The position numbers and the translations under genes were made by a program. Below are positions 8,208 through 33,720 of a DNA stretch of 35,573 nt, in pieces. The notes below the pieces were generated by a model, which made no database searches, was not told the DNA's origin, and saw nothing but the letters and a program-made list of their open reading frames with translations. Source of the stretch: Devosia sp. (lineage in GTDB: Bacteria; Pseudomonadota; Alphaproteobacteria; Rhizobiales; Devosiaceae); NCBI GenBank assembly GCA_030680995.1, contig JAUXUM010000110.1, positions 1 through 35,573 on the forward strand, in the 5' to 3' direction. Each line of letters starts with the position of its first letter. The first letter of the stretch is position 1.

Positions 8208-10183
8208 GCCAGCGTCTCCGCAGCGCGATTGACCTGCGCGGTCGAGAATTTCAAGCGGGTCAGGAAGCCTTCGAAATCCTTCGTGGTCCTGTCGATCCAC
8301 GCGCGTTCGGCATAGGCATAGATGCGCGGAAACACCAGAGTGTCGAACCGGCTCCGGTCGACCATGTGCTCCCCCCAGATGCAGGCCTGCACACCACGGA
8401 GCTTGGGCAGCAGTTCCGCCGGCCAGCCAAGACCCGGCTCGAAATCGTAGGTCTGTTCCAGGGAAACGGGTCCGGCCCAATGTCCGCCGGGCGAGCGCCA
8501 TTCCGAAGACGACGCCATATCCAGATAGTAGGCATTGCCCGGCGCAAGCACGACATCGAACCCTCGCTCGGCGAGTTCGAACGCGCGTTCCGGGTGCTGC
8601 CAGACGACAGCGGTCGTGGTTTGCGGGTCAAGCGAGGCGCTTCGCAGCGCGTCCTCCCAGACGACCGTACGCTTGCCCATTGCCTTCAGTTTCACATGGA
8701 CGTTGTCGATGATCAGTGCCTGCAGGTCGCCAGTGCGCTTGAGGCCGCGTACGCCGATCGCCGCCTTGACCGCCGGGGACTGCGCCCAGGTGTCGGCGGC
8801 GATTTCATCGCCGCCGATGTGGATGAGATCAGAAGCGAACCGCGACGCCACCGAGGTGAACACGGCATCCAGAAAATCATAGGTGGCCGGAAGGCAAGGG
8901 TTCAGGGCGTTGCCGAAAAAACCCTGTATGCTGTGATAGCCACCACCATCGCCGGGTTCGCGAAGCTGCGGCAGTGCAACCAGCGCGGCATGGGCATGCC
9001 CAGGGATATCGACCTCGGGGACGAGGGTGATGCCGAACTGGTCACCGTGCTTCGTGAGATCCCTGATCTCGTCGGCCGAGTATGCGCCACCATAGGGCGA
9101 ATGCGGACTGCCAAGCAGCGGCGGAAGCGGCAAGTCATGGCCGCGCCAGGCGGCGATTTCCGCGATCTCGGGATAGCCATCGACCTCGATGCGCCAACCT
9201 TCATCGTCGGTGAGGTGCAGATGCAGGACGTTCAGCTTCAGCCAGGCCTGGACGTCCATGATCGATTTGAGTTCGGCGACCGGATAGAAGGTTCGCGCGA
9301 CGTCCACCTCCAGCCCACGCCAGTCGAAGCGAGGTACGTCCGCGATCGTTCCGCGCACCGGAAACCCAAACCGGTCTGGGGCAGTGCGGGCTCCGATGAT
9401 CATCTGCGCCAGCGTGATCAGCCCATAGGCGAACCCCGCTTTGGTCTGGGCCTCCATCTGGACCAGCACGCCGTCGAAGGTCAGCTTGTACCCGTCGCGC
9501 CCCAATCGCTGGTCGCTCGCCTGACTCAGCACCAGACGGCGGAAGCCACTCCGGCCGCTTTCGGCGGCGACGAAGATGGGGGCCTGATGGTGGGTCACCC
9601 GGCGCGCGAGAGCATCAACGGCGGTGGAAAGCGCATAGGCGCCGGTGTCGGCCTCGTCTCCCAACTCGATGGCAAGATCGCCTGCCGGCAGCGGCGATAT
9701 AGCCACCGAAGCAACGTTCGGGAATGGAATGACGGAGAGGGACATCGGAGGACGATCGCGGGCATCCACGGGATTCCCGCGTCTGGCTGGCTTCGAAAGC
9801 GTCCCGACATTCGATGCGCTATGGCTGCGTGTCATCGGTTGGACGCCCACCTCGATGATCTCGCCACTCGAAAGCCGGACATAGGCCGACTTGGCGCCAT
9901 CGCCGGAATGCCGCGGCCATTCGTTGAGTCCCGATATGGCGAACGTCCAGACATTGGCCAGTTCCAGGACGTCCGGCTTGATCTCGATGAAATTGGAGAG
10001 TGAGCGAACCACCGTGCCGCCACGCACCGAGCCCTGACCGGTCAGCCAAAGCGTTCCTGTGAGGCAGAATGTGAAGTCGCTGATGGCGGTTTTGCCATTA
10101 TTGTAAAGGCTGTAGTGCAGTTCCCGAACGCCTTCGGGGCCGTGCCAAACTGATACCAGCCGCAAGTCACTGCCCGATGCCAT
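8204..10183 (-). CDS. GH20 beta-N-acetylhexosaminidase, probably cytoplasmic
   Basis: A 659-residue glycoside hydrolase family 20 enzyme that would release terminal GlcNAc or GalNAc by substrate-assisted catalysis. The N-terminal region (about residues 1-150) resembles a carbohydrate-binding accessory domain. A GH20b-type domain follows. The catalytic barrel starts near residue 285 with RFDWRGLEVDVARTFYP. HIGGDE holds the catalytic pair D459-E460, and VVWEDA and CIWGEHM are further active-site blocks. No signal peptide or lipobox is seen, so the substrate should be an imported oligosaccharide. The ATG at 10183 has GGAGAAAG about 11 nt upstream. It is the first gene of the leftward unit and is coupled to rpiR by ATGA. 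Confidence 0.9.
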   Translation of the reverse strand: MASGSDLRLVSVWHGPEGVRELHYSLYNNGKTAISDFTFCLTGTLWLTGQGSVRGGTVVRSLSNFIEIKPDVLELANVWTFAISGLNEWPRHSGDGAKSAYVRLSSGEIIEVGVQPMTRSHSASNVGTLSKPARRGNPVDARDRPPMSLSVIPFPNVASVAISPLPAGDLAIELGDEADTGAYALSTAVDALARRVTHHQAPIFVAAESGRSGFRRLVLSQASDQRLGRDGYKLTFDGVLVQMEAQTKAGFAYGLITLAQMIIGARTAPDRFGFPVRGTIADVPRFDWRGLEVDVARTFYPVAELKSIMDVQAWLKLNVLHLHLTDDEGWRIEVDGYPEIAEIAAWRGHDLPLPPLLGSPHSPYGGAYSADEIRDLTKHGDQFGITLVPEVDIPGHAHAALVALPQLREPGDGGGYHSIQGFFGNALNPCLPATYDFLDAVFTSVASRFASDLIHIGGDEIAADTWAQSPAVKAAIGVRGLKRTGDLQALIIDNVHVKLKAMGKRTVVWEDALRSASLDPQTTTAVVWQHPERAFELAERGFDVVLAPGNAYYLDMASSSEWRSPGGHWAGPVSLEQTYDFEPGLGWPAELLPKLRGVQACIWGEHMVDRSRFDTLVFPRIYAYAERAWIDRTTKDFEGFLTRLKFSTAQVNRAAETLA

Positions 10184-21478: not shown

Positions 21479-21823
21479 ACTGCCAGCTTCGCCACGGCGT
21501 CGAATTCTAACTCCGTTTCACAAGACCCACAAATCACCCCAATTCATAAGAACCCGCCTCAACGCCCCATGCGCATTGGCAATGCCTTGCGATACGCCGG
21601 CAACAATATCATGTCTAAACTAAAGCTGTTATTGGTGTCACTCGGCAGACGGAGAGCCAAGGCTTCATAGCGGCCCGTTTGACCCAGGGATCGCCACAAA
21701 CGCTTATGCCGAAATAGTGTCCTCGCTCTTCACCCAGTTCTTGACGAACGCGAGTATTTGCGTCGAAGCAGCGTCAACTGCCGGATCCGCTCAACCGCCG
21801 GTCCTGCCGCTGCTGGGCTCAGG
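21479..21823. other. 345-bp spacer between the TDT pair and the DHA kinase operon
   Basis: Both flanking units run leftward, so this region should hold the end of the dha operon and the promoter of the TDT pair. The stretch 21500-21660 is AT-rich. No convincing promoter, operator dyad or T-tailed terminator was found, and no supported gene. Confidence 0.4.
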
Positions 21824-22813
21824 TCAGACACCCCAGCGCAGCGCCGGGGTGTGCACCGGCGCGTCCCATAGGCGGGTGGATTGCTCGTCGAGCAGCGAAA
21901 GCGTGATGGAGCAGCCGGCCATGTCGAGCGAGGTGACATAGTTGCCCACCAGCGAGCGGGCGATGGAAACGCCGCGCCGTTCGAACAGCATCCGGGCGCT
22001 GTTGTACATCAGGTAGAGCTCCATCAGCGGCGTGCCGCCGAAGCCGTTGACGAAGAGCAGCGCCTCTTTGCCTTCGATGCTGCCGAAATCGCCCACGATG
22101 GCGTCGCAGACTTCCGTTGCGATCTCATCGGCACTTCTGAGCCTGTCGCGGCGGCGGCCGGGCTCGCCATGGATGCCGACGCCGAACTCCATTTCGCTTT
22201 CGCCGATTTCGAAGGTCGGCTTGCCGGCGGCGGGCACTGTGCAGCTGGTGAGTGCCACGCCCATCGAACGGGTTGCGGCGTTGACGGCATCGCCAAGGGC
22301 CTTCAGACCGGCCAGGTCCATGCCCGTCTCGGCGGCCGCGCCGACGATCTTTTCGACCACCAGCGTACCGGCCACGCCGCGCCGGCCGGTGGTGTAGGTC
22401 GAATCCTCGACCGCGACGTCGTCGTTGGTGATGATCCGCTCGGCCTTGCCGTCGGCCATTTCCGCGGCCATGTCGAAATTCATCACATCGCCCTCGTAGT
22501 TCTTGACGATGAAGAGGACGCCCGCGCCGGTATCGACCTCGGCGGCGGCCTCGAGCATCTGGTCGGGGGTGGGCGAGGTGAACACCTGCCCGGGACAGGC
22601 CGCATCCAGCATGCCGAGGCCGACAAATCCCGCGTGGAGCGGCTCATGGCCCGAGCCGCCGCCCGAGATCAGCGCCACCTTGCCCGGCTTCAGCGTCCCG
22701 CGGCGGACGAATTTATGGCCGCCGCCCAGCGTGACGATGTCGCCATGTGCGGCAGCGAAGCCATCGAGGCTTTCAGTAAGGACATTCTCGACCGCGTTGA
22801 TCAGTTTCTTCAT
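21824..22813 (-). CDS. dhaK: PTS-dependent dihydroxyacetone kinase, substrate-binding subunit
   Basis: A 329-residue DhaK. The protein binds DHA covalently through a histidine, here H215 in GVGIHGEPG. ISGGGSGHEPLHAGFVG near residue 55 forms the second part of the site. The length matches the PTS-dependent form rather than the ATP-dependent kinase that carries its own nucleotide domain. DhaL and DhaM are present as separate genes upstream in the same operon. The start overlaps the stop of the preceding HTH gene as ATGA. It is the last gene of the twelve-gene operon. Confidence 0.94.
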   Translation of the reverse strand: MKKLINAVENVLTESLDGFAAAHGDIVTLGGGHKFVRRGTLKPGKVALISGGGSGHEPLHAGFVGLGMLDAACPGQVFTSPTPDQMLEAAAEVDTGAGVLFIVKNYEGDVMNFDMAAEMADGKAERIITNDDVAVEDSTYTTGRRGVAGTLVVEKIVGAAAETGMDLAGLKALGDAVNAATRSMGVALTSCTVPAAGKPTFEIGESEMEFGVGIHGEPGRRRDRLRSADEIATEVCDAIVGDFGSIEGKEALLFVNGFGGTPLMELYLMYNSARMLFERRGVSIARSLVGNYVTSLDMAGCSITLSLLDEQSTRLWDAPVHTPALRWGV

Positions 22814-23244
22814 TCGTTCCCTCCCGATTTCTTCATCAGCCCGGCCATCTTCTGGATGAACTCACCGACAGCCTTGTCGAAGGCAGCATTGTGCTTGTCG
22901 TCGCCCAGATCGGGTACCAGCAGCGTCAGGTGCCGCGTCTTGCGCGCAGCATCCCCGATATCGAGCCTCCCTTTATGGGCCCTGCGATAGGCGGCCATGA
23001 AGGCGTCCCGCTCGGCCTGGCTGAAGTGGCAGACCGTGAACACGGTCGCGAGGTGCTTCTGCGGAATGGGCGTCGCGTAGCTGGGGCTGGTGATTTGCGT
23101 CACGAAACTGCGGTGCTTGCCCAGCGCATCGGCGAGCCGCTGGCGCGTGCCCGAGGGGCGCTGCTCCAGGACCTTGAGCAGCAGCATCTTGTAGGCGCGG
23201 ATATGGGCTTCCGGCCGCGACGGTTCGCTCTCGGGTCTATCCAT
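22810..23244 (-). CDS. HTH-like protein within the DHA kinase operon (unknown regulator)
   Basis: A 144-residue protein. The central part looks like a Cro/CI-type helix-turn-helix: TRQRLADALGKHRSFVTQIT (about residues 32-51), then PIPQKHLATVFTVCHFSQAERDAFMAAY. The C-terminal 50 residues are charged (LVPDLGDDKHNAAFDKAVG) with no family I recognise. The ATG at 23244 overlaps the ptsI end by eight bases, and its stop overlaps the dhaK start by four. Such tight packing suggests it senses or regulates this pathway. A direct DNA target is not known; the operator repeats at 31982-32024 are a candidate. Confidence 0.75.
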   Translation of the reverse strand: MDRPESEPSRPEAHIRAYKMLLLKVLEQRPSGTRQRLADALGKHRSFVTQITSPSYATPIPQKHLATVFTVCHFSQAERDAFMAAYRRAHKGRLDIGDAARKTRHLTLLVPDLGDDKHNAAFDKAVGEFIQKMAGLMKKSGGNE

Positions 23245-24829
23245 GGAGCGAGGCCCGCGCGATTGCCGCCTTGGCGAGCGGCAACTGCGCCGGGGCGACC
23301 GAGAGCTGACGCAGCCCGGCGCGCAGCAGGAACGGGATGGCCTGCGGATCGCCGCCAGCATCGCCGCAGAGACTGACGGAGATGTCGTTGGCCGCTCCGT
23401 ATCGAGTCACTTTCTCGATGAGTGCCAGGATCGCGGGATGGCGCACATCGCTGAGCGCGGCGACCGCCCCGTTGTCGCGGCCCGCGGCCATCACATACTG
23501 GGTCAGATCGTTCGAGCCGATGGAAAAGAACGCCACGTCGGCAAAGGCCTCCGGCGCGATGGCGACCGCCGGCACTTCGACCATGATGCCGAGCGGCGGC
23601 ATCTTGTGCGGGACGCCCGCCGCGGCAAGGGCCGCCGTCTCCTCATCGAACAGCGCCTTGGCCGCGGCATACTCCGACGCGAGGCTGATCATCGGGAACA
23701 TCACCTTGAGGTTGCCGATGACCGCGGCGCGCAAGAGCGCCCGGATCTGCACGCGGAACACTTCCGGCCGCGACAGCGAGAGCCGGATGCCGCGCAGGCC
23801 GAGGAACGGATTGGTCTCCTCGACCGTGAAGCCGCGCACCGGCTTGTCCCCGCCGGCATCGACGGTACGGATGGTAACCGGCCTGTTTCCTGCCCATGCG
23901 AGCACGTGGCGGTAAGCCGCGTACTGGGTTTCCTCGTCGGGGAGACCGTGGTTGAACAGGAACTCCGTCCGCATCAGCCCGACGCCGGCGCAGATTTCTG
24001 GATCGATGCGGTCCACGTCGGTCGGCTCGGCGACGTTGACGAGCACCTCGATGGCCGCGCCATCGGCGGTGACCGCGGGCTCACCCATCTGCGTCCGCGC
24101 CAGATTCATCAGTTGCAGATGCGCGGTGCTGGCCTTGAGGAATTCGTGGCGCTCGGCCGCATCGGGCAGCACCGTCACCTTGCCGTGCTCGGCATCGACG
24201 AGGACGAAATGATCATTCGCCGCCTGCAGGTCACCGACACCGACCAGCATCGGAATGCCGCGGGCGCGGGCGAGCATCGCCACGTGGCTCGTCGTGCTCC
24301 CCCGCAACAGCACGATGCCGCCACCCTTGGCCCAATCGGTGGCGAGGAACTGGGTGGGGGAGAGATCCCGGCCGAACAGCACCGCGCCCGCGGGCGCGCG
24401 CAGTGCCGCGGCGCCGGTCAAGGCGCGCAGTACTCGGTCGTGGATATCGCGGAGATCGGCGCCGCGGGCGCGGAAATAGCTGTCCTCGGCCGTGTCGTAG
24501 CCGTCGATCTCCTTGTTGAGCGCGGCGATCCATGCGTTGGCCGCATCATTCCCACCGCCGATGGCGGCGAAGGCCGGCGCCGCGAGGCTCTCGTCCTCCA
24601 TCATCGCCATCTGGAATTCGAGGATCAGCGCACTGTCGTCATCGGCCGAACTCATCAGCGTTGCGACTTCCGCTCTCGCCTGGGCGATCGCCGCATGCAG
24701 CCGCGCCGCCTCGGTGTCGGGCGCGCCGTTCGCGACATAGGTACCGGTCGCGGCGTCGATCAGGAAGAGCGGACCCGACGCATAGCCGACCGAGGCAACG
24801 ATGCCCTTGGCGCTAAGCGGAGTGAACAT
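23237..24829 (-). CDS. ptsI: PTS enzyme I (phosphoenolpyruvate-protein phosphotransferase), dha-dedicated
   Basis: A 530-residue enzyme I. The phosphorylated histidine is H182 in GSTTSHVAMLARARGIP. The PEP-binding barrel is complete, with GLMRTEFLF, FFSIGSNDLTQY and the C-terminal SLCGDAGGDP containing the conserved cysteine. It takes phosphate from PEP and passes it to HPr. In E. coli the DhaM protein is a fusion that includes a truncated enzyme I; here a full-length enzyme I gene sits in the operon. The ATG at 24829 has GGACGGAAAG upstream and is preferred over the ATG at 24844. It overlaps the HPr gene by 17 bases. Confidence 0.92.
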   Translation of the reverse strand: MFTPLSAKGIVASVGYASGPLFLIDAATGTYVANGAPDTEAARLHAAIAQARAEVATLMSSADDDSALILEFQMAMMEDESLAAPAFAAIGGGNDAANAWIAALNKEIDGYDTAEDSYFRARGADLRDIHDRVLRALTGAAALRAPAGAVLFGRDLSPTQFLATDWAKGGGIVLLRGSTTSHVAMLARARGIPMLVGVGDLQAANDHFVLVDAEHGKVTVLPDAAERHEFLKASTAHLQLMNLARTQMGEPAVTADGAAIEVLVNVAEPTDVDRIDPEICAGVGLMRTEFLFNHGLPDEETQYAAYRHVLAWAGNRPVTIRTVDAGGDKPVRGFTVEETNPFLGLRGIRLSLSRPEVFRVQIRALLRAAVIGNLKVMFPMISLASEYAAAKALFDEETAALAAAGVPHKMPPLGIMVEVPAVAIAPEAFADVAFFSIGSNDLTQYVMAAGRDNGAVAALSDVRHPAILALIEKVTRYGAANDISVSLCGDAGGDPQAIPFLLRAGLRQLSVAPAQLPLAKAAIARASLHG

Positions 24830-25106
24830 GCTTTCCGTCCTCATCGAAATCGCGCTTGATCAGCGAGACCAGCGCGTCGATGGCATCCTGGGCATCCTCG
24901 CCCTCCGCGCGCAGGAACAGGATCGAGCCCTTGGGCGCCTTGGTGGCCATCACCTTGACGATGCTCTTGGCATCGATCCACGGCCCCTCTGCGCCCAGGG
25001 CCAGATCGATGCGCGCCACAAACCCCTTGGCGAGTTTGGTAAACTTCACCGAGGGGCGGGCGTGCAGACCCACGTCGTGGGTGATGAGGACCTGTGCTTC
25101 AGCCAA
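24813..25106 (-). CDS. HPr-family phosphocarrier protein, dha-dedicated
   Basis: A 97-residue HPr. The phosphohistidine is H15 in GLHARPSVKF. S48 in DAKSIVKVM corresponds to the regulatory serine region. It shuttles phosphate from enzyme I to DhaM. Translation appears to start at TTG (25106), with AAGGAA about 11 nt upstream; no in-frame ATG gives a complete protein. It starts 16 bp after dhaM. Confidence 0.92.
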   Translation of the reverse strand: MAEAQVLITHDVGLHARPSVKFTKLAKGFVARIDLALGAEGPWIDAKSIVKVMATKAPKGSILFLRAEGEDAQDAIDALVSLIKRDFDEDGKHVHSA

Positions 25107-25122
25107 AACGCAACTATTCCTT

Positions 25123-25512
25123 CTAGGCCGGTGAGAGTTCTTCGGCGGTGGCGCACACTGCGGCGAGCGAGGCGCCGCCCGAGGCTTCGGTCGCCGCCAT
25201 CACCGCGCCCTCGACCACCGGGGCATTGCAGACGACGATGCGGCCGGCCTTGTCGGCGCCCAGCATTTCGATGGCCATCTCCGAATTGGTTTCGGCGCCG
25301 CCCAGATCGACGAGGATGGCGACCCCGGCCTCGGACCAGGCGCGGTCGATCGCCTGCATGATCGCCTCGACGCTCGTGCCCAGCCCGCCCCCCGGGTCGC
25401 CGCCGCACCAGGCCAGCGGCACTTCATCGCCCACCATCTGGCGCACCATGTCGGCGGCGCCTTCGGCCACCAGCGGCGAATGCGAAACGATGACGATGCC
25501 GACCTTGTTCAT
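25123..25512 (-). CDS. dhaM: DHA kinase phosphotransfer subunit DhaM (EIIA-Man domain only)
   Basis: A 129-residue EIIA-Man-type domain with the active histidine H11 in IVIVSHSP. ILVDLGGAETNSEMA near residue 65 is the usual DhaM block. It receives phosphate from HPr and rephosphorylates ADP bound to DhaL. It is the short form, without the HPr and enzyme I domains fused in E. coli DhaM; those functions are the next two genes. The ATG at 25512 overlaps the dhaL stop as ATGA. Confidence 0.92.
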   Translation of the reverse strand: MNKVGIVIVSHSPLVAEGAADMVRQMVGDEVPLAWCGGDPGGGLGTSVEAIMQAIDRAWSEAGVAILVDLGGAETNSEMAIEMLGADKAGRIVVCNAPVVEGAVMAATEASGGASLAAVCATAEELSPA

Positions 25513-26108
25513 TGCAGCGCCCCCGCCACAGCCTCGACGATCAGCGCACTCGAGCGGGCGCCGGGATCGACATGGCCGACCGACCGCTCGCCAAGAAACG
25601 AGGCGCGGCCACGGATCGCCTTGACGTTGCGCGTCGCTTCGGCCGCCGCGGCGGCGATTGCCGCGATTTCGGCGCCGCTGCGGTTGGCGTTGAGCGCATC
25701 GGCGACGGGGTAGAGCACGTCGAGCATGGTCTTCTGGCCCAGTTCGGATTTGCCGCGCGCCGCCACCGCATCCACCGCCTTGGCCATCGCTCCAGCGAGG
25801 TCGGCAGAGGCCGGCGGCGCATTGGCGAGTTCCTTGCCCAGGGTCAGGAACAACGTGCCGTAGAGCGGCCCCGAGGCGCCGCCCACGGTCATCACCAGCT
25901 TGGTCCCGATGGCCTTGAGCGCTTCGGGCAGCGGCTTTACAGCGATGCTTTCGAGATCGCTCAGCACCGCCTCTACCCCGCGCCTCATATTGTGGCCGTG
26001 GTCGCCGTCCCCGATTGCCGAATCGAGCGCGGTCAGTTCCTCCGCATGCGCGGAGATCGTCCCGGCGGCAGCGGTGACCAGAGCGCGGAACAGCGCCTCG
26101 TCGATCAT
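25509..26108 (-). CDS. dhaL: DHA kinase ADP-binding subunit DhaL
   Basis: A 199-residue DhaL. D29, D34 and D36 in LDSAIGDGDHG are the Mg-ADP ligands. TVGGASGPLYGTLF near residue 75 is the second conserved loop, and GHVDPGA near residue 180 is the closing one. The bound nucleotide acts as a phosphate relay from DhaM to DHA on DhaK. The start overlaps the upstream ATPase stop as ATGA, directly coupling transport genes to the kinase. Confidence 0.94.
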   Translation of the reverse strand: MIDEALFRALVTAAAGTISAHAEELTALDSAIGDGDHGHNMRRGVEAVLSDLESIAVKPLPEALKAIGTKLVMTVGGASGPLYGTLFLTLGKELANAPPASADLAGAMAKAVDAVAARGKSELGQKTMLDVLYPVADALNANRSGAEIAAIAAAAAEATRNVKAIRGRASFLGERSVGHVDPGARSSALIVEAVAGALQ

Positions 26109-27130
26109 TGCGCCCTCCCTCCCAGCCAGTTGCCGTCCGCATCGAAGCAGAGCGGATTGTTGTAGCGGATCATTACCTTGTCGCCCGGGGCAAGAGGGGT
26201 ATCAGGCGGCGACAGCGTGATCAACTTGCGGTCTCCCAGTTTCACATGCAGGTGGTTCTGGTCGCCCAGATGCTCAATCCAGTCGACGACGCCGTCGGCT
26301 TGCCCATTCGCCGATTTCTCGATCCGCAGATGCTCGGTACGGGCGCCGACGGTCTTAGTTCCAGCGGGCAGGCCGGCATCGGGGAGGAGGCCCTGGGGCA
26401 GCAGGTTGATCGCCGGCTGCCCGAGCCGGGTCGCCACATGGGTGTTGCGCGGCTCGGTGTAGATCTTGCGCGGCGTACCGATCTGGATGAGCTCGCCGTC
26501 TTTCAATATGCCGATGCGGTCGGCCATGGTCATGGCCTCGATCTGGTCGTGGGTAACATAGAGCAGCGTCGCCCCAAGCTCCTGCTGGATGCGCTTGAGT
26601 TCGAGCCGCATCTCCGCGCGCAACTTCGCATCGAGCGAGGAGAGCGGCTCATCCATCAGATAAATCGCCGGCTGCCGTACCAGCGCCCTGCCGATCGCGA
26701 CGCGCTGCATCTCACCGCCGGAGAGCCGCGTTGCCCGGCTCTCGAGCTTGTGGTCGATGCGGACCAGCTTTGCCGTTGCCTCGACGCGTCGCTTGATCTC
26801 GTCCTTGCCCATCCGCCGGGCGGGCGATCTGAGCGGGAAGGCGAGGTTTTCGTAGACCGAAAGGTGCGGGTAGAGCGAATATTGCTGGAAGACAAAGGTC
26901 ACGTCGCGCGCCGAAGGCGGCGCCAGCGTCACGTCCTCGCCGCCGATCAGCACCCGGCCCGCGTCGGGCCGTTCGAGCCCAGCGACAAGCCGCAGCGTCG
27001 TGGTCTTGCCCGCCCCGGTCGGCCCCAGCAGCACGACGAACTCGCCATCGGCGATGGTGAGGTCCAGCCCCTCGATCGCCCGGGTCTGGCCGAAGCTCTT
27101 GGCGACCCCCCGAAGCATGACCTCAGCCAT
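26105..27130 (-). CDS. Carbohydrate ABC transporter ATPase 2 (UgpC/MalK-like)
   Basis: A 341-residue ATPase with Walker A GPTGAGKT, Q-loop FVFQQYSLYPH, canonical signature LSGGEMQRVA, Walker B YLMDEPLSSLDA and H-loop YVTHDQ. A C-terminal TOBE-type domain follows (about residues 235-341). The ATG at 27130 lies 8 nt inside the end of the other ATPase gene. With that gene it forms a heteromeric pair, as in the rhizobial glycerol transporter GlpST. The substrate is inferred from the kinase genes: DHA, glycerol or a related polyol. Confidence 0.9.
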   Translation of the reverse strand: MAEVMLRGVAKSFGQTRAIEGLDLTIADGEFVVLLGPTGAGKTTTLRLVAGLERPDAGRVLIGGEDVTLAPPSARDVTFVFQQYSLYPHLSVYENLAFPLRSPARRMGKDEIKRRVEATAKLVRIDHKLESRATRLSGGEMQRVAIGRALVRQPAIYLMDEPLSSLDAKLRAEMRLELKRIQQELGATLLYVTHDQIEAMTMADRIGILKDGELIQIGTPRKIYTEPRNTHVATRLGQPAINLLPQGLLPDAGLPAGTKTVGARTEHLRIEKSANGQADGVVDWIEHLGDQNHLHVKLGDRKLITLSPPDTPLAPGDKVMIRYNNPLCFDADGNWLGGRAQ

Positions 27131-28220
27131 GAGCGGCCCCCTCGAACAGCGCTGTCTCGATGGCGCGGCCGGACGTCCGGTCGAAGACCGAGAGGTGGCC
27201 GCCACTCAAGGCAAGGCCCACCTGCTCTCCGGTGGTGACATGCTCATCGGCAGGAATGCGCGCCTTGAGCAGGCCACCGGGCGTTTCGACCGAGACGATC
27301 TGGGTGGTGCCCAGATATTCGGCCCCCAGGATCTCGCCACGGATCGGTGAGGCATCGTCAAGCCTTATGTGCTCGGGGCGGACGCCCAGCGCCAGTTCGG
27401 CCAGCGGCACGTCCTCGCGAATCTGCGGCACGGCGATCTTTGCGCCGAGGATGGCGACGGTGCTGTCGCCCTTGGCGAGGCCGGAACTGAAGCTCAGGAA
27501 ATTCATCGGCGGCGAGCCCATGAAATCGGCGACATACATGGTGCGCGGTCGGTCGTAGATTTCGCGCGGCGTGCCGAACTGCTCGATCACGCCATGGTTC
27601 ATCACCGCGATCTTGTCGGCCATCGACATCGCTTCCATCTGGTCGTGCGTCACATAGACCGTGGTGGCGCGGATGCGGTTGTGCAGCTCTCTGAGCTCGT
27701 GGACCATCAGATCGCGGAACTCGGTGTCGAGCGTGCCCAGCGGCTCGTCCATCAGGAAGCACTTAGGCCGCCGCACGATGGCGCGGCCAAGCGCCACGCG
27801 CTGGCGGTCGCCACCGGCCAGGCCCGAGACCGGACGGTCCAGCAGGTGGTCGATGCGCAGCAGCTTTGCCACCTCTTCGACGCGCTGCCGGATTTCGGCG
27901 CCCGGCATGCCCTGCGCGAGCAGCGGAAAGCCGATGTTCTTGCGCACATTCATGTGCGGATAGAGGGCGAAGAGCTGGAACACGAAGGCGATGTCGCGCT
28001 CGCGCGCCCGGCGCATGGTGACATCCTCGCCGTCGAGCAGGATGCGGCCCGAGGTCGGGAGTTCGAGCCCGGCGATCATGCGCAGTGTCGTGGTCTTGCC
28101 GCAGCCGGAGGGGCCGACCATCACAAAAAACTCGCCATCCTGAACGGTAAATGACGAATTCTGAACGGCGGTGAAACCGGAGAATTCCTTCCGCAGCTGT
28201 TCGATCCGGATCTCAGCCAT
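27123..28220 (-). CDS. Carbohydrate ABC transporter ATPase 1, unusual signature motif
   Basis: A 365-residue ATPase with Walker A GPSGCGKT, Q-loop FVFQLFALYPH, Walker B CFLMDEPLGTLD and H-loop YVTHDQ. The signature reads LAGGDRQRVA instead of LSGGQ. With the paired ATPase carrying a normal signature, one of the two ATP sites may be weak. A TOBE-type C-terminal domain contains LALGVRPEHIRL. It starts 3 bp after the 59-residue membrane protein gene. Confidence 0.9.
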   Translation of the reverse strand: MAEIRIEQLRKEFSGFTAVQNSSFTVQDGEFFVMVGPSGCGKTTTLRMIAGLELPTSGRILLDGEDVTMRRARERDIAFVFQLFALYPHMNVRKNIGFPLLAQGMPGAEIRQRVEEVAKLLRIDHLLDRPVSGLAGGDRQRVALGRAIVRRPKCFLMDEPLGTLDTEFRDLMVHELRELHNRIRATTVYVTHDQMEAMSMADKIAVMNHGVIEQFGTPREIYDRPRTMYVADFMGSPPMNFLSFSSGLAKGDSTVAILGAKIAVPQIREDVPLAELALGVRPEHIRLDDASPIRGEILGAEYLGTTQIVSVETPGGLLKARIPADEHVTTGEQVGLALSGGHLSVFDRTSGRAIETALFEGAAHG

Positions 28221-28223
28221 CGC

Positions 28224-28403
28224 TCACTCCGGGAACTTCGAAACGACGATGAACATGAGCGTGCCGACGAGCAAGGTGATGAAGCTGTACGAGTAGAGCT
28301 CGAGCATGAAGGGCTGGAACAGCATCGCGAAGCCAGCGCCGATCAGGGCGATGGCAATGGCTTCCATGGGCTTGCGGCGGAGCAGGCGGGGCCAAACGTT
28401 CAT
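28224..28403 (-). CDS. 59-residue two-helix membrane protein in the ABC operon (unknown)
   Basis: Starts at the ATG at 28403, overlapping the permease stop as ATGA. The N-terminus is basic (PRLLRRKP). Two hydrophobic helices follow: AIAIALIGAGFAMLFQPF (about residues 15-32) and SFITLLVGTLMFIVVS (about 39-54). It ends KFPE. Rhizobial glycerol transporter operons also carry a small membrane protein gene (glpU), but this one seems shorter and I cannot equate the two. Likely an accessory subunit of the transporter. Confidence 0.8.
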   Translation of the reverse strand: MNVWPRLLRRKPMEAIAIALIGAGFAMLFQPFMLELYSYSFITLLVGTLMFIVVSKFPE

Positions 28404-29350
28404 TTCCGCACCGCCCCGAACGTAATCCCGCGCAAGAGCTGCTTGCGCAGGAGAATCGTGAACACCAGGATCGGCACGAGGAAGATCGTCGTGCCCGAGG
28501 CGACGGCCGGCCAGTCCAGCCCGCCCTCCCCGATAATGGTCGGGATGAAGGGCGGCGAGGTCTGCGCCGAGCCGGAGGTGAGGATCACCGCGAAGGCATA
28601 TTCGTTCCAGGCGAAGATCAGGCAGAAGATGGCGGTGGCGGCGATGCCGGTCGTCGCCTGCGGCAGAACCACCTTCCAGAACGCCCGCAGCCGCGTATAG
28701 CCGTCGATCATCGCGGCTTCCTCGTACTCGCGCGGGATTTCGTCGATGAAGCCCTTGAGCAGCCAGACCGCGAGCGAGACATTGACCGCCGTGTAGAGGA
28801 GGATCATCCCCAGCGCCGAGTCCGAAAGCCCGAGTTCGCGGTACATCAGATAGATCGGGATGGCGACCGCGATCGGCGGCATCATCCGGGTCGAAAGGAT
28901 GAAGAACAACAGGTCGTCGGCCAGCGGCACCTTGAAGCGCGAGAAGCCGTAGGCGGCGAGCGTCCCCAGCGACACCGCGAGAAAAGTCGACCCGAAGGCG
29001 ATGACCAGCGAATTGATGAAGCGCGGCCAGTAGTTGGACGGTCCGGCGATCACCATGTTGCGCCGGCGGGTGATCTCGTCGCACAGCGTCGTCGCCGGTC
29101 CCAGCGCATCCACATATTCCCGGGTCTGCCGGGTGCGGGTGGTGAAGAGGTTGCAATAGCCCTCGAGACTGGGCTGGAAGATCACCTTGGGCGGGTACGA
29201 GATCGAGTCGGGAGGCGTCTTGAAGCTGGTCGCAAAGATCCAGAACAGCGGCACCATCGAGATCAGCGCATAGGCGACGACGATCGCCCCGGCGATGCGC
29301 TTGCTGGTGCGGGTCGGCTCGATGACGGAATGGGCGGTGGTGAGGCTCAT
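28400..29350 (-). CDS. Carbohydrate ABC transporter permease 2 (MalG-like)
   Basis: A 316-residue permease with six transmembrane segments and the EAA loop EYEEAAMIDGYTRLRAFWKVVLP. Between helices 1 and 2 there is a long periplasmic insertion of about 60 residues (NLFTTRTRQTREYVDALGP onward, with CDEITRRR), longer than in typical MalG proteins. The ATG at 29350 overlaps the stop of the first permease as ATGA. Confidence 0.92.
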   Translation of the reverse strand: MSLTTAHSVIEPTRTSKRIAGAIVVAYALISMVPLFWIFATSFKTPPDSISYPPKVIFQPSLEGYCNLFTTRTRQTREYVDALGPATTLCDEITRRRNMVIAGPSNYWPRFINSLVIAFGSTFLAVSLGTLAAYGFSRFKVPLADDLLFFILSTRMMPPIAVAIPIYLMYRELGLSDSALGMILLYTAVNVSLAVWLLKGFIDEIPREYEEAAMIDGYTRLRAFWKVVLPQATTGIAATAIFCLIFAWNEYAFAVILTSGSAQTSPPFIPTIIGEGGLDWPAVASGTTIFLVPILVFTILLRKQLLRGITFGAVRK

Positions 29351-30315
29351 CGCTGCTTCACCCGGTTGAGCGCTTTGACATAGATGTTGGCGAGGCCGAA
29401 CACCGCGACAAAAAGGATGATGGCGAAGGCGGACGAATAGCCGGTGCGCCACTTCTCGAAGGCCTCACGCTTGAGCGTGATCGAGGCAACTTCGGTGGTC
29501 GAACCCGGCCCGCCGCCGGTCAGGAGGTTCACCATGTCGAACATCTTGAAGTTCTCGATGCCGCGGAACAGCACCGCCAGCATGATGAAGGGCAGCGCCA
29601 TGGGCAACGTGATCGACCAGAACTGCCGCCACGGCGAGGCGCGGTCGACTTCTGCCGCCTCATAGATGTAATCGGGGATCGAGCGCAGCCCCGCGAGGCA
29701 GATCAGCATCACGTACGGCGTCCACATCCAGGTATCGACAATGATGATCGCCCAGGGCGCCAGTTGCACCGAGCCCAGCATCTCGAAGCTCGAGGGCGGG
29801 ATGCCGGTAAAGAACGAGACGATGTAATTGAAGAGCCCGATCTGCGGCTGGTAGAGGAACCGCCAGAAATTACCGACCACCGCCGGCGACAGCATCATCG
29901 GCACCAGGATAATGGTGGTCCAGAAGGCGTGGCCGCGGAACTTGCGGTCGATGAGGAAGGCGAGGCCGAAGCCGATCACGGTCTGCAGCGCGATGGTCCA
30001 GAACACGAAATTGGCCGTGGTCTGCATGGCGATCCAGATGTCCGGATCGGTGAGGATGCGCTCGTAGTTGCGCAGCCCGACGTTGGCGATGGCCTCATTT
30101 GGCCGATTGGCGCGGTAATTGGTGAAGCTCAGCCCGATCGCCCAGAACAGCGGGAAGATGTTGATGGCCAGCAGCAGCGCCATGGTGGGCGCGATGAACA
30201 GCCAGGCGACCGCGCGGTCCGAGAGACCCTCGACCTTTTTGGCCAGCCTCCGCGGCGTCTTCAGCACCGCGGCCTCTGCTGCGCGATCGAGCATCGATGT
30301 TCTGGCGTCGGTCAC
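29347..30315 (-). CDS. Carbohydrate ABC transporter permease 1 (MalF/UgpA-like)
   Basis: A 322-residue permease with six transmembrane segments and the EAA-type loop YIYEAAEVDRASPWRQFWSITLP. The first helix is WLFIAPTMALLLAINIFPLFW. Translation may start at GTG (30315) or at ATG (30294, eighth codon); neither has a strong ribosome site. It is separated from the binding-protein gene by 215 bp containing two strong hairpins. Confidence 0.92.
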   Translation of the reverse strand: MTDARTSMLDRAAEAAVLKTPRRLAKKVEGLSDRAVAWLFIAPTMALLLAINIFPLFWAIGLSFTNYRANRPNEAIANVGLRNYERILTDPDIWIAMQTTANFVFWTIALQTVIGFGLAFLIDRKFRGHAFWTTIILVPMMLSPAVVGNFWRFLYQPQIGLFNYIVSFFTGIPPSSFEMLGSVQLAPWAIIIVDTWMWTPYVMLICLAGLRSIPDYIYEAAEVDRASPWRQFWSITLPMALPFIMLAVLFRGIENFKMFDMVNLLTGGGPGSTTEVASITLKREAFEKWRTGYSSAFAIILFVAVFGLANIYVKALNRVKQR

Positions 30316-30401
30316 GATTGGGCAATCCCATTCGGTTCATACCAGCGCCGCACATTACCACGTGGCGCCCATTTCGAGAGACCGCGAGCCCCCACCCTCG
30401 A

Positions 30402-30423
30402 TCCCTCCCCGCGAGGGGAGGGA
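30402..30423. repeat. Intergenic palindrome 1 (binding protein/permease spacer)
   Basis: TCCCTCCCC (30402-30410), loop GCGA and GGGGAGGGA (30415-30423) form a perfect 9-bp stem. Together with the second palindrome it lies directly downstream of the binding-protein gene. It resembles the short GC-rich palindromes scattered between genes in many alphaproteobacteria. Confidence 0.75.
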
Positions 30424-30478
30424 GGCGGGAGCCCGCGTTCCGAGTTCACCACAAGCATTGTGATCGAGGTTCCTTCGT

Positions 30479-30504
30479 CCCCCTCCCCCTCGAGGGGGAG
30501 GGGG
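30479..30504. repeat. Intergenic palindrome 2 (binding protein/permease spacer)
   Basis: A perfect 26-bp palindrome, each half CCCCCTCCCCCTC, centred on the CGAG of CTCGAG. It starts 27 bp past the binding-protein stop codon. A stem here would shield the upstream binding-protein mRNA and reduce read-through, as REP elements do after malE. This role is inferred. Confidence 0.8.
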
Positions 30505-30530
30505 TGGGGGTGGGGATTACGCCACGGGCA

Positions 30531-31856
30531 CTAGAGCTTGCCGTCGTCCTCGAAGACTTCGGTCCAGTCCTCGATCAGCAGGTCGAGCGCTTCCTTGGCC
30601 GTGCCCTGGTCGGCGACGACGTAGTCATGCATGCGCTTCTGCATGGCCTGCAGCAGCGAGGCGTAGCTCGGCTCCTGCCAGAAATCCTTCACGTTGTTCA
30701 TGGCCGCAAGGAAATCGGCCGCGAACGGCGAGGACGTCGGATAGGAGGGGTCATTGAGCACCGCCACATGGCAGGACGATCCGCCCAATGAATACCACTT
30801 CTTCTGCACGTCGGCCTGGGCGAACCACTTGATGTAGTTGAGCGCGCCTTCCATGTTGTCGGTGTTGGCGACCACCGAGATGCCCTGCCCGCCCAGCGTC
30901 GAGCCTTCGACGTTCTGCCCGGGATTGACGAAGAAGCCGATCTTGTCGCCGCCGACATTCTCGTCCTTGTACATGCCGGGCCAGAACGCGAACCAGTTCA
31001 TCATCATGGCGACCTGGCCGGATTTGAAGGCGTCGAGCCCCTGGTCCATGTAGCTGTCGGAGTACCCCGGCGGCGTGCAGCACTTGTAGACGGCCTTGTA
31101 TTTTTCCAGCGCGGCCACGGCTTCGGGCGAATTGACCGCGCCCTCCATGTCGTACTTGCCGGGCGTCATCTCGTATTTGAAGCCATAGGGATAGAGCGCC
31201 GAGGTGATGCCCATGGTGATGCCTTCGGACCCACGCTCGGTGAAGATCGCGGCGCCATAGACGGTTTTGCCGTCGATCTCGCGTCCCTGGAAGAACGCAG
31301 CCACTTCCTGCAGCTCGTCCCAGGTCTTGGGCGGGGTGAGGTCGCGGCCGGCCTTGGCCTTGAATTCGGCGGCGACCTCGGGATTCTCGAACCAGTCCTT
31401 GCGGTAGACCCAGGCATTGGCGTCGCCCATGGCGGGCAGCGCCCAGTAGTTCGGCGTGCCCTTGGGCCAGGTGGAATAGGCATAGACGGTCGCCGGAGCG
31501 AAATCGTCCATGCTGATCCCTTCCTTGTCGAAGAAATCGTTGAGCTTGACGTAATAGCCGTTCTCGGCCGAGCCGCCGAGCCACTGGCTGTCCCCGATCA
31601 AGAGGTCGCAGAGCTTGCCGCCCGAATTGAGTTCGTTGAGAATGCGGTCGGCGAAATTGGGCCACGGCACGAATTCGAAACTCATCGTGGTGCCGGTCTG
31701 CGCGGTAAAATCCTTGCTCAGCTCGACCAGGGCATTTGCCGGGTCCCACGCCGCCCAGCAGAGCGTCAGTTCATCCGCCTGCGCCCCGGCAGGCATCGCC
31801 GCAGCGAGCATCATGAACGATGCCGTCGCTGCCGCGGTCTTCAGACCTACGTGCAT
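30531..31856 (-). CDS. Carbohydrate ABC transporter substrate-binding protein (periplasmic)
   Basis: A 441-residue extracellular solute-binding protein of the family 1 (MalE-like) class. A signal peptide of about 26 residues ends PAGAQA before DELTLCW. The fold includes WPNFADRILNELNSGG and a run of tryptophans and tyrosines expected to stack on a sugar or polyol. The ATG at 31856 has AGGGAGGAG about 5 nt upstream, the strongest ribosome site of the operon. It is the first gene of the operon. The ligand is inferred from the kinase genes and remains unproven. Confidence 0.92.
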   Translation of the reverse strand: MHVGLKTAAATASFMMLAAAMPAGAQADELTLCWAAWDPANALVELSKDFTAQTGTTMSFEFVPWPNFADRILNELNSGGKLCDLLIGDSQWLGGSAENGYYVKLNDFFDKEGISMDDFAPATVYAYSTWPKGTPNYWALPAMGDANAWVYRKDWFENPEVAAEFKAKAGRDLTPPKTWDELQEVAAFFQGREIDGKTVYGAAIFTERGSEGITMGITSALYPYGFKYEMTPGKYDMEGAVNSPEAVAALEKYKAVYKCCTPPGYSDSYMDQGLDAFKSGQVAMMMNWFAFWPGMYKDENVGGDKIGFFVNPGQNVEGSTLGGQGISVVANTDNMEGALNYIKWFAQADVQKKWYSLGGSSCHVAVLNDPSYPTSSPFAADFLAAMNNVKDFWQEPSYASLLQAMQKRMHDYVVADQGTAKEALDLLIEDWTEVFEDDGKL

Positions 31857-31981
31857 AGTCTCCTCCCTGAAATGGAACCGGCACCCGGCTCCGCGAAGGG
31901 CCGTCTTCACGACCCAAATCCTCCCGCGCCCTGTTCACTGACCGGCTTGCCCCGGCTCTTTGCGACTGCGACCATTGGCGC

Positions 31982-32024
31982 ATGTTTAGTGATCATGTTT
32001 AGTAAAACGCAAATTACTAAACAT
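31982..32024 (-). promoter_or_regulatory. Operator cluster: three ATGTTTAGT half-sites
   Basis: ATGTTTAGT occurs at 31982-31990 and 31995-32003 and, inverted (ACTAAACAT), at 32016-32024. The latter two extend to a perfect 11-bp inverted repeat, ATGTTTAGTAA-N8-TTACTAAACAT (31995-32024). The cluster covers the predicted promoter of the ABC-dha operon from the -35 element to about the +10 region, the usual place for a repressor. The regulator is not identified. Confidence 0.75.
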
Positions 32025-32029
32025 TGCAA
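32001..32029 (-). promoter_or_regulatory. Predicted promoter of the ABC-dha operon
   Basis: On the minus strand TTGCAA (32024-32029) and TTTACT (32001-32006) are 17 bp apart. Transcription would start near 31994, about 138 nt upstream of the binding-protein start. The elements are moderate matches, and overlap with the inverted repeat supports the assignment. The rest of 31857-32256 holds no supported gene. Confidence 0.5.
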
Positions 32030-32256
32030 GAGGGGATGCGCAGGCGGGTACGAGGCATGCGCGTGAGGTTTCATCTGGCGGCAACAAGACAAGAGGCCAG
32101 GCGTTGGACGCGCATCGGAGCCCGGGCCACCGTTGCTCTCGATATATGCGCGGGGCGCCGGCCCGCAGTCCTGGCGAGTGAAGGCGGAGGGCGCTGTCGT
32201 CCCCCGCGAAAACCGCCTTGCAACCTCCGCGCATTTGGACTTGATTGCCAGGTCCA

Positions 32257-33720
32257 ATGCTCCAGTTGATGCCAGGCCGCAGAACGGCAGTCTCGGGAAG
32301 GCCGATCCACAGGGCGCGCCTCGCGGCCTATCGGCTGACGCGCTATCTGACGCTCTCGCAGCGCTTCCTGCTGGCGGCGGCCATCGTGGTGGCGCTGGCG
32401 ATGGCCGTGCTCGGCAACTGGATCGGCTACTATCTGCAATCGAGCATCACCAGGGGGGTGGCCAGCTCCGCCGCCGCCAGCATCGATTCGCTGATTTCAC
32501 ACCAGTTCGACATTCTGGGTCCCGATCGTCCGCTGACGGAAGAGGACCGCGCGAAGCTGGACGAGGTTTTCGAGATCGGCAACGACGCCGACTCCACCCG
32601 CCTGCTGCAGATCCAGATCCGCAACCTCGACGGCTCGATACTCTATGATTCGTTTGGCGGGCTGATCGATGAAATCGAGACCGAGAACTTCATCGCCGCC
32701 GCGCGGCAAGGCACGGTCGTCTCCAGCATCCGCAATCTGCCCCTCGAGCCCGTCGGGCCGCTCGACGGGCATTCGATTTCGGTGCTCAAGATCTATACGC
32801 CGCTGCACCGGCCGGTAACCGAGGAGATATTTGCCGTCGCCGCGCTCTACTACAGCGCCAAGGCACTCCTCGCCATCCAGTTCCGCGCGCAGCTCGATGT
32901 GTGGGTCCTTGTCGGGCTGATCGGCCTGGGCGTGATCGGCGTGCTCTTCGTCCTCGTCGACCGGGCGAGCCGGACCATCGTTTCGCAGCGCGCCCGCCTG
33001 GCGAGGAACCTCGTCGCCTCCCGAAAACTGTCCGAGGAGAACCACAAGCTCCATGCGGCATCCGAACAGCTGCGGCTCGATGCCAACTTCGCCAATGAGA
33101 GCCTGCTGGCCCAGGTCGGCTCCGACATCCATGACGGACCGATCCAGTTGCTCACCCTGATCATATTGCGGCTGACCGGGGCCACCGGCGCCGTCGCCGG
33201 CGGCAAGGGGCAACCATCGCCGGACTTGGCCGCAACCGTCCAGCTGGCCACCGACGCCATGGAGGAATTGCGCAACATCTCCACCGGCCTCGTCCTGCCC
33301 GAACTCGCCGAGCTGAGCCTCGAGGACGCCATCCAGCTCGCCATCTCCAGGCACGAGGAAGCGACCGGGACCCTTGTGAAGCACGCGCTGCAAGAGCTGC
33401 CCGGGACCACTTCCATGGCCGTCAAGGTCTGTGCCTACCGCATCGTCCAGGAGGCGCTGAACAACGCCTTCCGGCACGGCGGCGCATCGGACCAGTTTGT
33501 CGCGGCGGCTGCCGGCAGCGCCACATTCACCGTCGCCATCACCAACTCGGCGCGCGGGAGGCGTGTGCCGCACTCGAACGAGGAGAACTCGCTGAAGCTG
33601 GGATTGCGGGGCATGCGCTTCCGCGTCGAGTCGCTGGGCGGCGTCCTGCGCGTGGACATCGGCTCCTCCTCCAAGACCACCATCTCCGCCGAGATTCCGT
33701 TGGCCGTGGCCGAGGGCTAG
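32257..33720 (+). CDS. NarX-type sensor histidine kinase (HisKA_3)
   Basis: A kinase of 487 residues. An N-terminal helix (about residues 38-60) and a second helix (about 208-232) bracket a periplasmic sensor domain of about 145 residues. A short coiled segment leads to the dimerisation block SDIHDGPIQLL with the phosphorylated H292. The ATPase domain has RIVQEALNNAFRHG and GLRGMRFRVESLGG. Start codons at 32257 and 32269 are both possible, and a TTG at 32245 is less likely. It is divergent from the ABC-dha operon, and its stop overlaps that of the convergent response regulator. The signal is unknown. Confidence 0.9.
   Translation: MLQLMPGRRTAVSGRPIHRARLAAYRLTRYLTLSQRFLLAAAIVVALAMAVLGNWIGYYLQSSITRGVASSAAASIDSLISHQFDILGPDRPLTEEDRAKLDEVFEIGNDADSTRLLQIQIRNLDGSILYDSFGGLIDEIETENFIAAARQGTVVSSIRNLPLEPVGPLDGHSISVLKIYTPLHRPVTEEIFAVAALYYSAKALLAIQFRAQLDVWVLVGLIGLGVIGVLFVLVDRASRTIVSQRARLARNLVASRKLSEENHKLHAASEQLRLDANFANESLLAQVGSDIHDGPIQLLTLIILRLTGATGAVAGGKGQPSPDLAATVQLATDAMEELRNISTGLVLPELAELSLEDAIQLAISRHEEATGTLVKHALQELPGTTSMAVKVCAYRIVQEALNNAFRHGGASDQFVAAAAGSATFTVAITNSARGRRVPHSNEENSLKLGLRGMRFRVESLGGVLRVDIGSSSKTTISAEIPLAVAEG

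Follow-up and report, generated by a model that had tools for sequence, protein, structure and literature searches.

A contig of 35,573 nucleotides from the alphaproteobacterium Devosia sp. (JAUXUM010000110.1, assembly GCA_030680995.1), here called the window at its full length, carries a run of twelve minus-strand genes in which an ATP-binding cassette (ABC) importer is joined to a dihydroxyacetone (DHA) kinase of the phosphotransferase system (PTS). The locus raises the question of what such an importer brings into the cell, how it is tied to the kinase next to it, and by what the unit is controlled. From 31856 down to 21824, consecutive open reading frames (ORFs) encode a sugar-type binding protein (SBP), two permeases (P1 and P2), a hydrophobic micro protein (U), two ATPases (A1 and A2), the kinase subunits DhaL and DhaM, HPr, enzyme I (EI), a helix-turn-helix (HTH) protein and DhaK, so that the ORF coordinates and family assignments bear out the content, strand and order given in a preliminary description of the stretch. 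The genome comprises 3.14 Mb in 257 contigs, the window being contig C180; where loci, genomes, contigs or families need to be told apart, they carry L, G, C and f numbers.

The importer and the kinases beside it

To sample the importer without regard to the kinase, SBP served as the query against 385 genomes of the class (E<=1e-60). SBP matches were found in 22 of them (the window genome included), the other 21 at 62-82% identity, and in all 20 of the loci examined (G326 was left out) a DHA kinase lies directly after A2. Its type differs: nine loci have the split PTS set (with dhaK inverted in L238), one a two-domain kinase together with the PTS set, seven a two-domain kinase alone, and three DhaL and DhaK without DhaM. 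PTS genes are not in the examined stretch of 10 of the 20 loci; three of these (L240, L243 and L247) lie on contigs that end 192-1450 bases after the kinase, so that later PTS genes are possible there. The same pairing was seen on plasmids, in a search from which 60 of 185 records were listed: all 51 records with an SBP of at least 60% identity, many of them closely related, have a DHA kinase. In 47 it is a two-domain kinase no more than 8 kb away on the strand of the importer; the remaining four records are Ruegeria, with a two-domain kinase by annotation, Microvirga, with a PTS set, and Caballeronia and Paraburkholderia, with dhaL and dhaK. In the one case examined of a more distant importer with the same six-gene layout, a 42%-identical one from Rhizobium leguminosarum, no DHA kinase lies alongside.

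The constant is the importer with a DHA kinase, and the variable is the kinase type. Ruegeria, Alloyangia and Rhizobium rosettiformans illustrate this: they share the six importer genes with the window (SBP 68-77% identical) but have a two-domain kinase in place of the PTS set, no match to the HTH protein and no pair of the half-sites described below. As a separate observation, the importer is followed by dhaL and dhaK only, with no DhaM, HPr or EI in the examined stretch, in L247 (contig-cut), L248, L249, L253 and L254, of which L248 and L249 belong to genomes of 1.4 Mb.

Within the order, DhaM (TIGR02364) scored above its cut-off in 66 of 297 genomes, the window genome included, and the flanks of all 65 other DhaM loci were compared by tblastn. 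All twelve genes recur in the same order at 41 of these 65 loci, a recurrence that makes the cluster more than a chance arrangement (L134 is counted as complete, its HPr having been seen in one tblastn round and falling below the score used in the other). The importer is joined to the split PTS at 44 loci, comprising the 41 and three without one gene, namely two without a detectable U only (L122 and L131) and one without a detectable HTH gene (L124). A further four loci are cut by contig ends, and four have a fused, E. coli-like DhaM. The gene-neighbourhood comparison that the preliminary description had proposed thus recovers the complete order widely, and its treatment of the cluster as unusual is contradicted by the same counts. 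Both kinase architectures occur in this one order, since L161, L162, L163 and L138 show the arrangement dhaK-dhaL-dhaM with a long fused DhaM.

An extra two-domain DHA kinase lies in or beside the unit at 12 of the 44 importer-bearing loci; at L236, L143, L150, L174 and L179, one operon holds or adjoins both such a kinase and the full PTS kinase set. A search with the HTH protein, from which the best 80 of 117 relatives were taken (mostly Mesorhizobium, with a few Devosia and others), returned Devosia and other Hyphomicrobiales as its closest relatives, and the same gene order holds among these loci where contigs allow. In 58 of the 75 loci of this set having both genes, A2 and dhaL are more than 1 kb apart; in the four loci read out, the insert is a two-domain kinase, the L014 copy having Dak1 and Dak2 domains. 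Nearly all relatives, and the 42%-identical outgroup importer (L255) too, keep U between P2 and A1; U may possibly be a new ABC accessory subunit.

The importer has SBP_bac_1/8 matches, two MalF/MalG-like permeases and MalK-like ATPases with a TOBE domain, the features of the class that we take to be CUT1. Where gaps exceed 350 bp in the 44 importer-bearing operons of the order, the contents are a further DHA kinase, a TIM-barrel protein at L157, an unrelated small protein at L134, another DhaL-like match at L144 or no convincing ORF, and no dehydrogenase was recognised among them, partly by manual ORF reading. Ahead of an importer-less core in G266 come the last part of a GlpK gene and a major intrinsic protein (MIP) channel. 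The constant kinase pairing, the gap contents and the G266 neighbours agree with an importer that carries the kinase's own substrate, and by this association DHA appears to be the best candidate ligand.

All three subunits of the PTS-dependent kinase, DhaK, DhaL and an enzyme IIA (EIIA)-type DhaM, exceed the NCBIfam cut-offs (TIGR02363, TIGR02365 and TIGR02364), and their motifs are intact: SGHEP, GD and GIHGEPG in alignment with the solved E. coli DhaK, GDGDHG and GERSVGHVDPGA with E. coli DhaL, and VIVSHSP with L. lactis DhaM. We take these to be the substrate-binding histidine and general base of DhaK, the aspartate cluster of DhaL and the phosphorylated histidine of DhaM; the GLHARP motif of HPr and the TSH and CG motifs of EI, likewise intact when compared with solved relatives, presumably hold the active-site histidines of the phosphorelay. 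EI, with 530 residues against 573-575 in solved EIs, has three domains over Pfam cut-offs, including the phosphoenolpyruvate (PEP)-binding domain. The start of the NCBIfam model for DhaM of the E. coli type (473 positions) aligns with the window DhaM, and its end covers no more of the window EI than residues 18-218; the PEP-binding domain is absent from the model. Because the window EI also carries that domain, the relay is self-contained, and the earlier wording of a fully split, self-contained PTS, with separate DhaM, HPr and EI, stands. No EIIB, EIIC or EIID of a classical sugar PTS was found among the twelve operon proteins (Pfam on ten, NCBIfam on DhaL and DhaK), the membrane parts being BPD_transp_1. 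Elsewhere in the genome there are one more HPr and three more proteins with a PEP-utiliser C-terminal domain, in frames of 758-812 residues, which, judged by length, are probably EI-Ntr, PEP synthase and pyruvate phosphate dikinase.

Among known systems, E. coli DhaKLM has DhaK and DhaL homologues with the same motifs, and the window DhaM exceeds the cut-off for its EIIA domain; the window differs in that DhaM is EIIA alone, HPr and a three-domain EI are separate, and an ABC importer is linked. In E. coli, dhaK is the first gene of the operon, whereas here it is the last. L. lactis shares the single-domain DhaM; its DhaKLM uses the general HPr and EI of the cell, whereas in the window both lie inside the operon. 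Two further sets were noted by manual ORF reading. At L185 (contig C67 of G000), a second DhaK-DhaL pair lies with an Rbs-type ABC importer, a short-chain dehydrogenase/reductase, an RpiB-like gene and a SorC-like regulator, a set that presumably resembles a tetritol pathway. At L186 (contig C155 of G000), a third DhaK-type gene (662 residues) and DhaL-like and TIM-barrel-like genes follow an ABC importer of another type.

The gene set is already in print. In the accessible part of PMC5017801, Bradyrhizobium diazoefficiens blr3566-blr3577 are annotated as SBP, permease, permease, small hypothetical protein, ATPase, ATPase, DhaL, EIIA, HPr, EI, hypothetical protein and DhaK, which, compared by annotation only, is the twelve-gene order of the window. 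In a blr7984 mutant, induction of the twelve ranged from 4.2- to 24.3-fold, and in the wild type they were lower in bacteroids, at 0.17-0.60 of the free-living level; the substrate and the switch are not worked out in that part of the paper. Mesorhizobium dha genes are discussed in PMC4777399, where the word ABC does not occur in the main text. Among the literature matches listed, there was no substrate or regulator assignment for the gene set and no ABC importer assigned to DHA.

The preliminary description had proposed a single uptake-and-phosphorylation pathway resting on physical coupling of importer and PTS relay. The single unit gains support from the gene order conserved across many families, from the co-induction of the same list of genes in B. 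diazoefficiens (PMC5017801, accessible part) and from the pairing of the importer clade with DHA kinases; the coupling to the relay finds no such support, since the kinase type beside the importer varies and the relay is therefore not essential to the pairing.

The predicted operator and the HTH protein

The motif formed by three half-sites upstream of SBP was first noticed in the window and then tested elsewhere. In the window genome, TGTTTAGT-N12-ACTAAACA occurs exactly once, and this is the sole site with no more than two mismatches; the next-best sites have three and are no more numerous than those of a control. For the comparison of loci, we counted as a cluster at least two ACTAAA/TTTAGT hexamers within 400 bp upstream, omitting loci with less than 250 bp upstream of the first gene or with an SBP match starting after residue 60, filters which leave most Mesorhizobium loci and most order loci with an extra two-domain kinase outside the 62 counted. 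Clusters lie upstream of 52 of the 62 importer operons with an HTH gene (about 0.3 expected in shuffles), that is, in the window (1/1), at 13 of 14 loci from the HTH query, at 27 of 34 in the order and at 11 of 13 in the class and on plasmids. None was found at the 15 importer operons without a detected HTH gene, including the contig-cut L240, L243 and L247, which end 1450, 252 and 192 bases after the kinase and in which absence of the HTH gene is uncertain, or at the six importer-less cores without an HTH gene (four of them of the fused-DhaM type). Fisher's test gives 1.8e-12 for 52/62 against 0/21 and 1.3e-11 against 0/19, with two contig-cut loci dropped, neither value being corrected for relatedness.

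Clusters were also lacking at the 42%-identical outgroup importer (0/1) and were present at 6 of 15 HTH-positive loci without an importer in the examined stretch, at least three of which are contig-cut, the tested stretch there not being the promoter. By family, clusters occur in 13 of 15 HTH-positive families of the order, in all six further families of the class and in none of seven HTH-negative class families (tallied by hand; f87, one of the seven, and f74 rest on contig-cut loci). A G precedes the hexamer in 98% of half-sites, though it was not part of the search, and the spacing is set, with an inverted pair 18 apart in 25 cases and a direct pair 12-13 apart in 23.

Across the 297 genomes, the full pattern with at most one mismatch gave 32 sites in 32 genomes, 31 of them at this operon, whereas a reversed control pattern matched in 10 genomes. 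Thirty sites lie within 9 kb upstream of their own genome's dhaM; that of G130 is just upstream of SBP, on a contig with the other part of a split operon, and that of G029 lies elsewhere, with no query genes nearby; no HTH gene was detected in the core of the latter genome. All 32 site-bearing genomes are DhaM-positive, and no site was found in the 230 genomes without a DhaM match. A once-per-genome site at this operon is as expected of a local regulator.

The HTH protein has no Pfam family, and a search of PDB sequences gave chance-level matches only; its AlphaFold model has a mean predicted local distance difference test (pLDDT) score of 70. The simplest reading is that this protein binds the half-sites, and the predicted pair of regulator and operator is new here.

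A proposed pathway and its alternatives

We consider it reasonably probable that the operon is a scavenging pathway for the three-carbon sugar DHA, combining ABC import, phosphorylation by a dedicated soluble PTS and local control by the HTH protein. It builds on what was observed of the gene content and order, on motifs that are intact, on the pairing of importer and kinase, and on conserved sites that co-occur with the HTH gene. Its predicted parts are DHA as the ligand, the binding of the sites by the HTH protein, the direction in which regulation acts and the role of U. In the periplasm, SBP would capture DHA or a small ketose very close to it, and the P1-P2 channel, driven by A1 and A2 and with U as a putative accessory subunit, would import it at the cost of ATP. 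Inside the cell, phosphoryl groups would pass from PEP through EI and HPr to DhaM (EIIA), which would rephosphorylate the ADP held on DhaL; DhaL would then hand the phosphate to DHA bound on DhaK, yielding dihydroxyacetone phosphate for glycolysis. These kinase steps follow what is established for DhaKLM. The 144-residue HTH protein would bind the TGTTTAGT half-sites upstream of SBP and control the unit.

If this is true, Hyphomicrobiales and other Alphaproteobacteria, along with two plasmid cases from Burkholderiales, would have a testable DHA importer of the ABC type paired with interchangeable kinases, and an ABC importer and a soluble PTS would share one pathway, the importer replacing the PTS permease. 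For the 144-residue protein, which has no Pfam family, the operator-HTH pair suggests a function, and the pair would also offer a direct reporter for the natural inducer. The cluster itself being widespread and in print, the new and testable parts are the importer-kinase pairing and the operator.

Several observations weigh against the DHA pathway and its local switch. The split PTS core stands without an importer alongside at 13 of the 65 DhaM loci, and a Gfo/Idh/MocA oxidoreductase gene adjoins 15 of them, accompanied in 13 by an AP_endonuc_2 TIM-barrel gene (of the other two, L166 has none in view and in L182 that flank falls outside the examined stretch). In a search of PDB sequences, the nearest solved relatives of SBP are distant and annotated for trehalose/maltose or other larger sugars; an SBP model considered for ligand inference was unusable (mean pLDDT 44.7, six sequences) and was set aside. 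The accessible part of PMC5017801 gives no substrate, operator or role of blr3576 for blr3566-blr3577 and has no substrate tested. The strict operator pattern is missing from 28 of 59 HTH-bearing genomes (the window genome counted), many of which have single or differently spaced half-sites. Finally, the best PDB folds for the HTH model, restriction-modification C-proteins and lambda repressor (probability up to 0.98), come at E>=0.32, which is not significant, so that the fold is only suggestive.

Given the MocA gene at 15 of 65 loci, the cargo might have to be processed before the kinase can act on it. A processed DHA precursor is a live rival as cargo: the importer would take a larger sugar or polyol, the oxidoreductase and the TIM-barrel enzyme would convert it, and the DHA-type kinase would phosphorylate the product, for instance erythrulose or released DHA. 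We regard this as unlikely, though the likeliest of the alternatives. The MocA-TIM pair also adjoins the importer in two 1.4-Mb genomes (L248 and L249) and in Ruegeria, xylose genes adjoin in Ruegeria (by annotation) and at two other loci (by manual reading), and MocA relatives (E<=1e-80) are commoner in importer-positive genomes (50/64) than in DhaM-negative ones (21/64). Those controls, however, were hand-picked and unmatched for size or lineage, and three of three same-family controls have a MocA gene without a DhaM match; since the controls are unmatched, we keep the pair as a rival only and not as part of the core. Moreover, the pair is placed outside the core, on either side or absent, with the operator between the MocA gene and SBP in the one case laid out (L259), a MocA relative is missing from 14 of 64 importer-positive genomes, and the window DhaK exceeds the DhaK equivalog cut-off. 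The pair beside a DHA operon recurs in several families (L191:1311-3576; L223, on contig C29 of G000; L202; L248; L249), sometimes with xylose genes, and the window genome has a 60%-identical MocA relative with a TIM-barrel gene on another contig. Glycerol, named in the preliminary description among the possible substrates, is much less credible, and we rejected it as the main substrate. It would have to be imported here, converted to DHA through oxidation by a dehydrogenase not linked to the operon, and phosphorylated, a route that we hold to be very unlikely. The layout of the window operon resembles that of the rhizobial GlpSTPQUV system, a sugar-type glycerol ABC importer that likewise has two ATPases and a small membrane protein, and one importer-less locus, that of G266, has glycerol-type neighbours. 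However, contig C10 of the genome already carries DUF2160 and GlpK, together with a Glp-type importer and GlpD by manual ORF reading, the SBP encoded there is only 24% identical to that of the operon, and glycerol is less likely on these grounds. U is not DUF2160 and has no Pfam match, neither DUF2160 nor a glycerol kinase or dehydrogenase was found among the 20 other window ORFs scanned, and no dehydrogenase was recognised inside the operons.

Two alternatives concern control. The relay could be chiefly regulatory, with the importer, or else the HTH regulator, gated by the phosphorylation state of DhaM, HPr or EI, a role that PTS proteins have in other systems; MalK-like TOBE domains are present in both ATPases, and PTS-Ntr is reported, in the accessible part of PMC3665714, to inactivate ABC transport in R. 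leguminosarum. This we regard as highly improbable, given that 10 of the 20 class loci have ATP-type or DhaL-plus-DhaK kinases and no PTS genes in the examined stretch (L240, L243 and L247 being contig-cut) and that DhaL and DhaK are complete in the window. The TGTTTAGT sites might also be bound by a regulator encoded elsewhere, with another role for the HTH protein. In favour of this are the weak fold match, the HTH-bearing genomes without the strict pattern, the fact that, of 15 HTH-positive loci that are importer-less or contig-cut, only six have at least two half-sites upstream of dhaL, and the G029 site, away from a core without a detected HTH gene; it is made unlikely by the absence of two half-sites from all 21 HTH-negative loci and by a strict pattern that occurs once per genome and, in 31 of 32 cases, at the operon. 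Returning to the DHA pathway under local control, we tentatively add an extension that we think improbable in its full form: a closed circuit in which a new family of HTH regulators, acting on an operator present once per genome, would set the expression of a dedicated DHA importer, and the regulator would read not DHA itself but its flux through the kinase or relay, as phosphorylation of DhaL, DhaK or DhaM.

Layout of the operon and its surroundings

Ten of the eleven junctions, computed from the coordinates in Table 1, are overlaps or gaps of less than 20 bp, in keeping with the short junctions described before. In the importer part they measure +215 (SBP-P1, the sole exception), -4 (P1-P2), -4 (P2-U), +3 (U-A1), -8 (A1-A2) and -4 bp (A2-dhaL), and in the kinase part -4 (dhaL-dhaM), +16 (dhaM-HPr), -17 (HPr-EI), -8 (EI-HTH) and -4 bp (HTH-dhaK). 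Ten of the twelve proteins were scanned against Pfam, and DhaL and DhaK were placed by NCBIfam; all received a family except U and the HTH protein. In Pfam, DhaM falls in EIIA-man, above the cut-off.

Table 1. Genes and other features of the importer-kinase operon, with positions in the window.
Feature	Position	Strand	Basis
SBP, periplasmic sugar-type binding protein, 441 aa, predicted DHA-binding	30531..31856	-	SBP_bac_8 8e-25, SBP_bac_1 8e-24; clade adjoins DHA kinase wherever sampled
P1, MalF/UgpA-like permease, 322 aa, GTG start	29347..30315	-	BPD_transp_1 9e-20
P2, UgpE/MalG-like permease, 316 aa	28400..29350	-	BPD_transp_1 7e-19
U, hydrophobic micro protein, 59 aa	28224..28403	-	no Pfam family; kept between P2 and A1; relatives 43-78% identical
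A1, MalK/UgpC-like ATPase with TOBE domain, 365 aa	27123..28220	-	ABC_tran 5e-34, TOBE_2
A2, second MalK/UgpC-like ATPase with TOBE domain, 341 aa	26105..27130	-	ABC_tran 5e-32, TOBE_2
DhaL, ADP-binding kinase subunit, 199 aa	25509..26108	-	TIGR02365 212 bits (cut-off 138); GDxDHG and GERSxGHxDPGA as in E. coli DhaL
DhaM, EIIA domain only, 129 aa	25123..25512	-	TIGR02364 136 bits (cut-off 98); VIVSHSP as in L. lactis DhaM
HPr, 97 aa, TTG start	24813..25106	-	PTS-HPr 3.5e-21; GLHARP motif
Enzyme I, 530 aa, three domains complete	23237..24829	-	TIGR01417 358 bits (cut-off 342); TSH and CG motifs retained
HTH protein, 144 aa, predicted operon regulator	22810..23244	-	AlphaFold N-terminal five-helix domain; gene presence tracks operator
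DhaK, DHA-binding kinase subunit, 329 aa	21824..22813	-	TIGR02363 479 bits (cut-off 406); SGHEP, GD, GIHGEPG as in E. coli DhaK
Predicted operator, TGTTTAGT-N12-ACTAAACA and a third half-site 13 bp further	31984..32023	-	about -165 to -128 from SBP start
SBP-P1 gap, 215 nt, strong hairpins	30316..30530	-	fold z-score -4.76

A scan of 21500-32300 gave three terminator-like sites, fewer than in shuffles, none of which falls in the gap between SBP and P1, and the hairpins there are possibly an mRNA-stabilising element. A consensus scan of the same region gave one sigma-70-like site only, on the plus strand. Upstream of the operon, a divergent histidine kinase (HisKA_3) gene occupies 32245-33720 on the plus strand, and at 7344-10183 on the minus strand an RpiR-family regulator adjoins a GH20 hexosaminidase-type gene.

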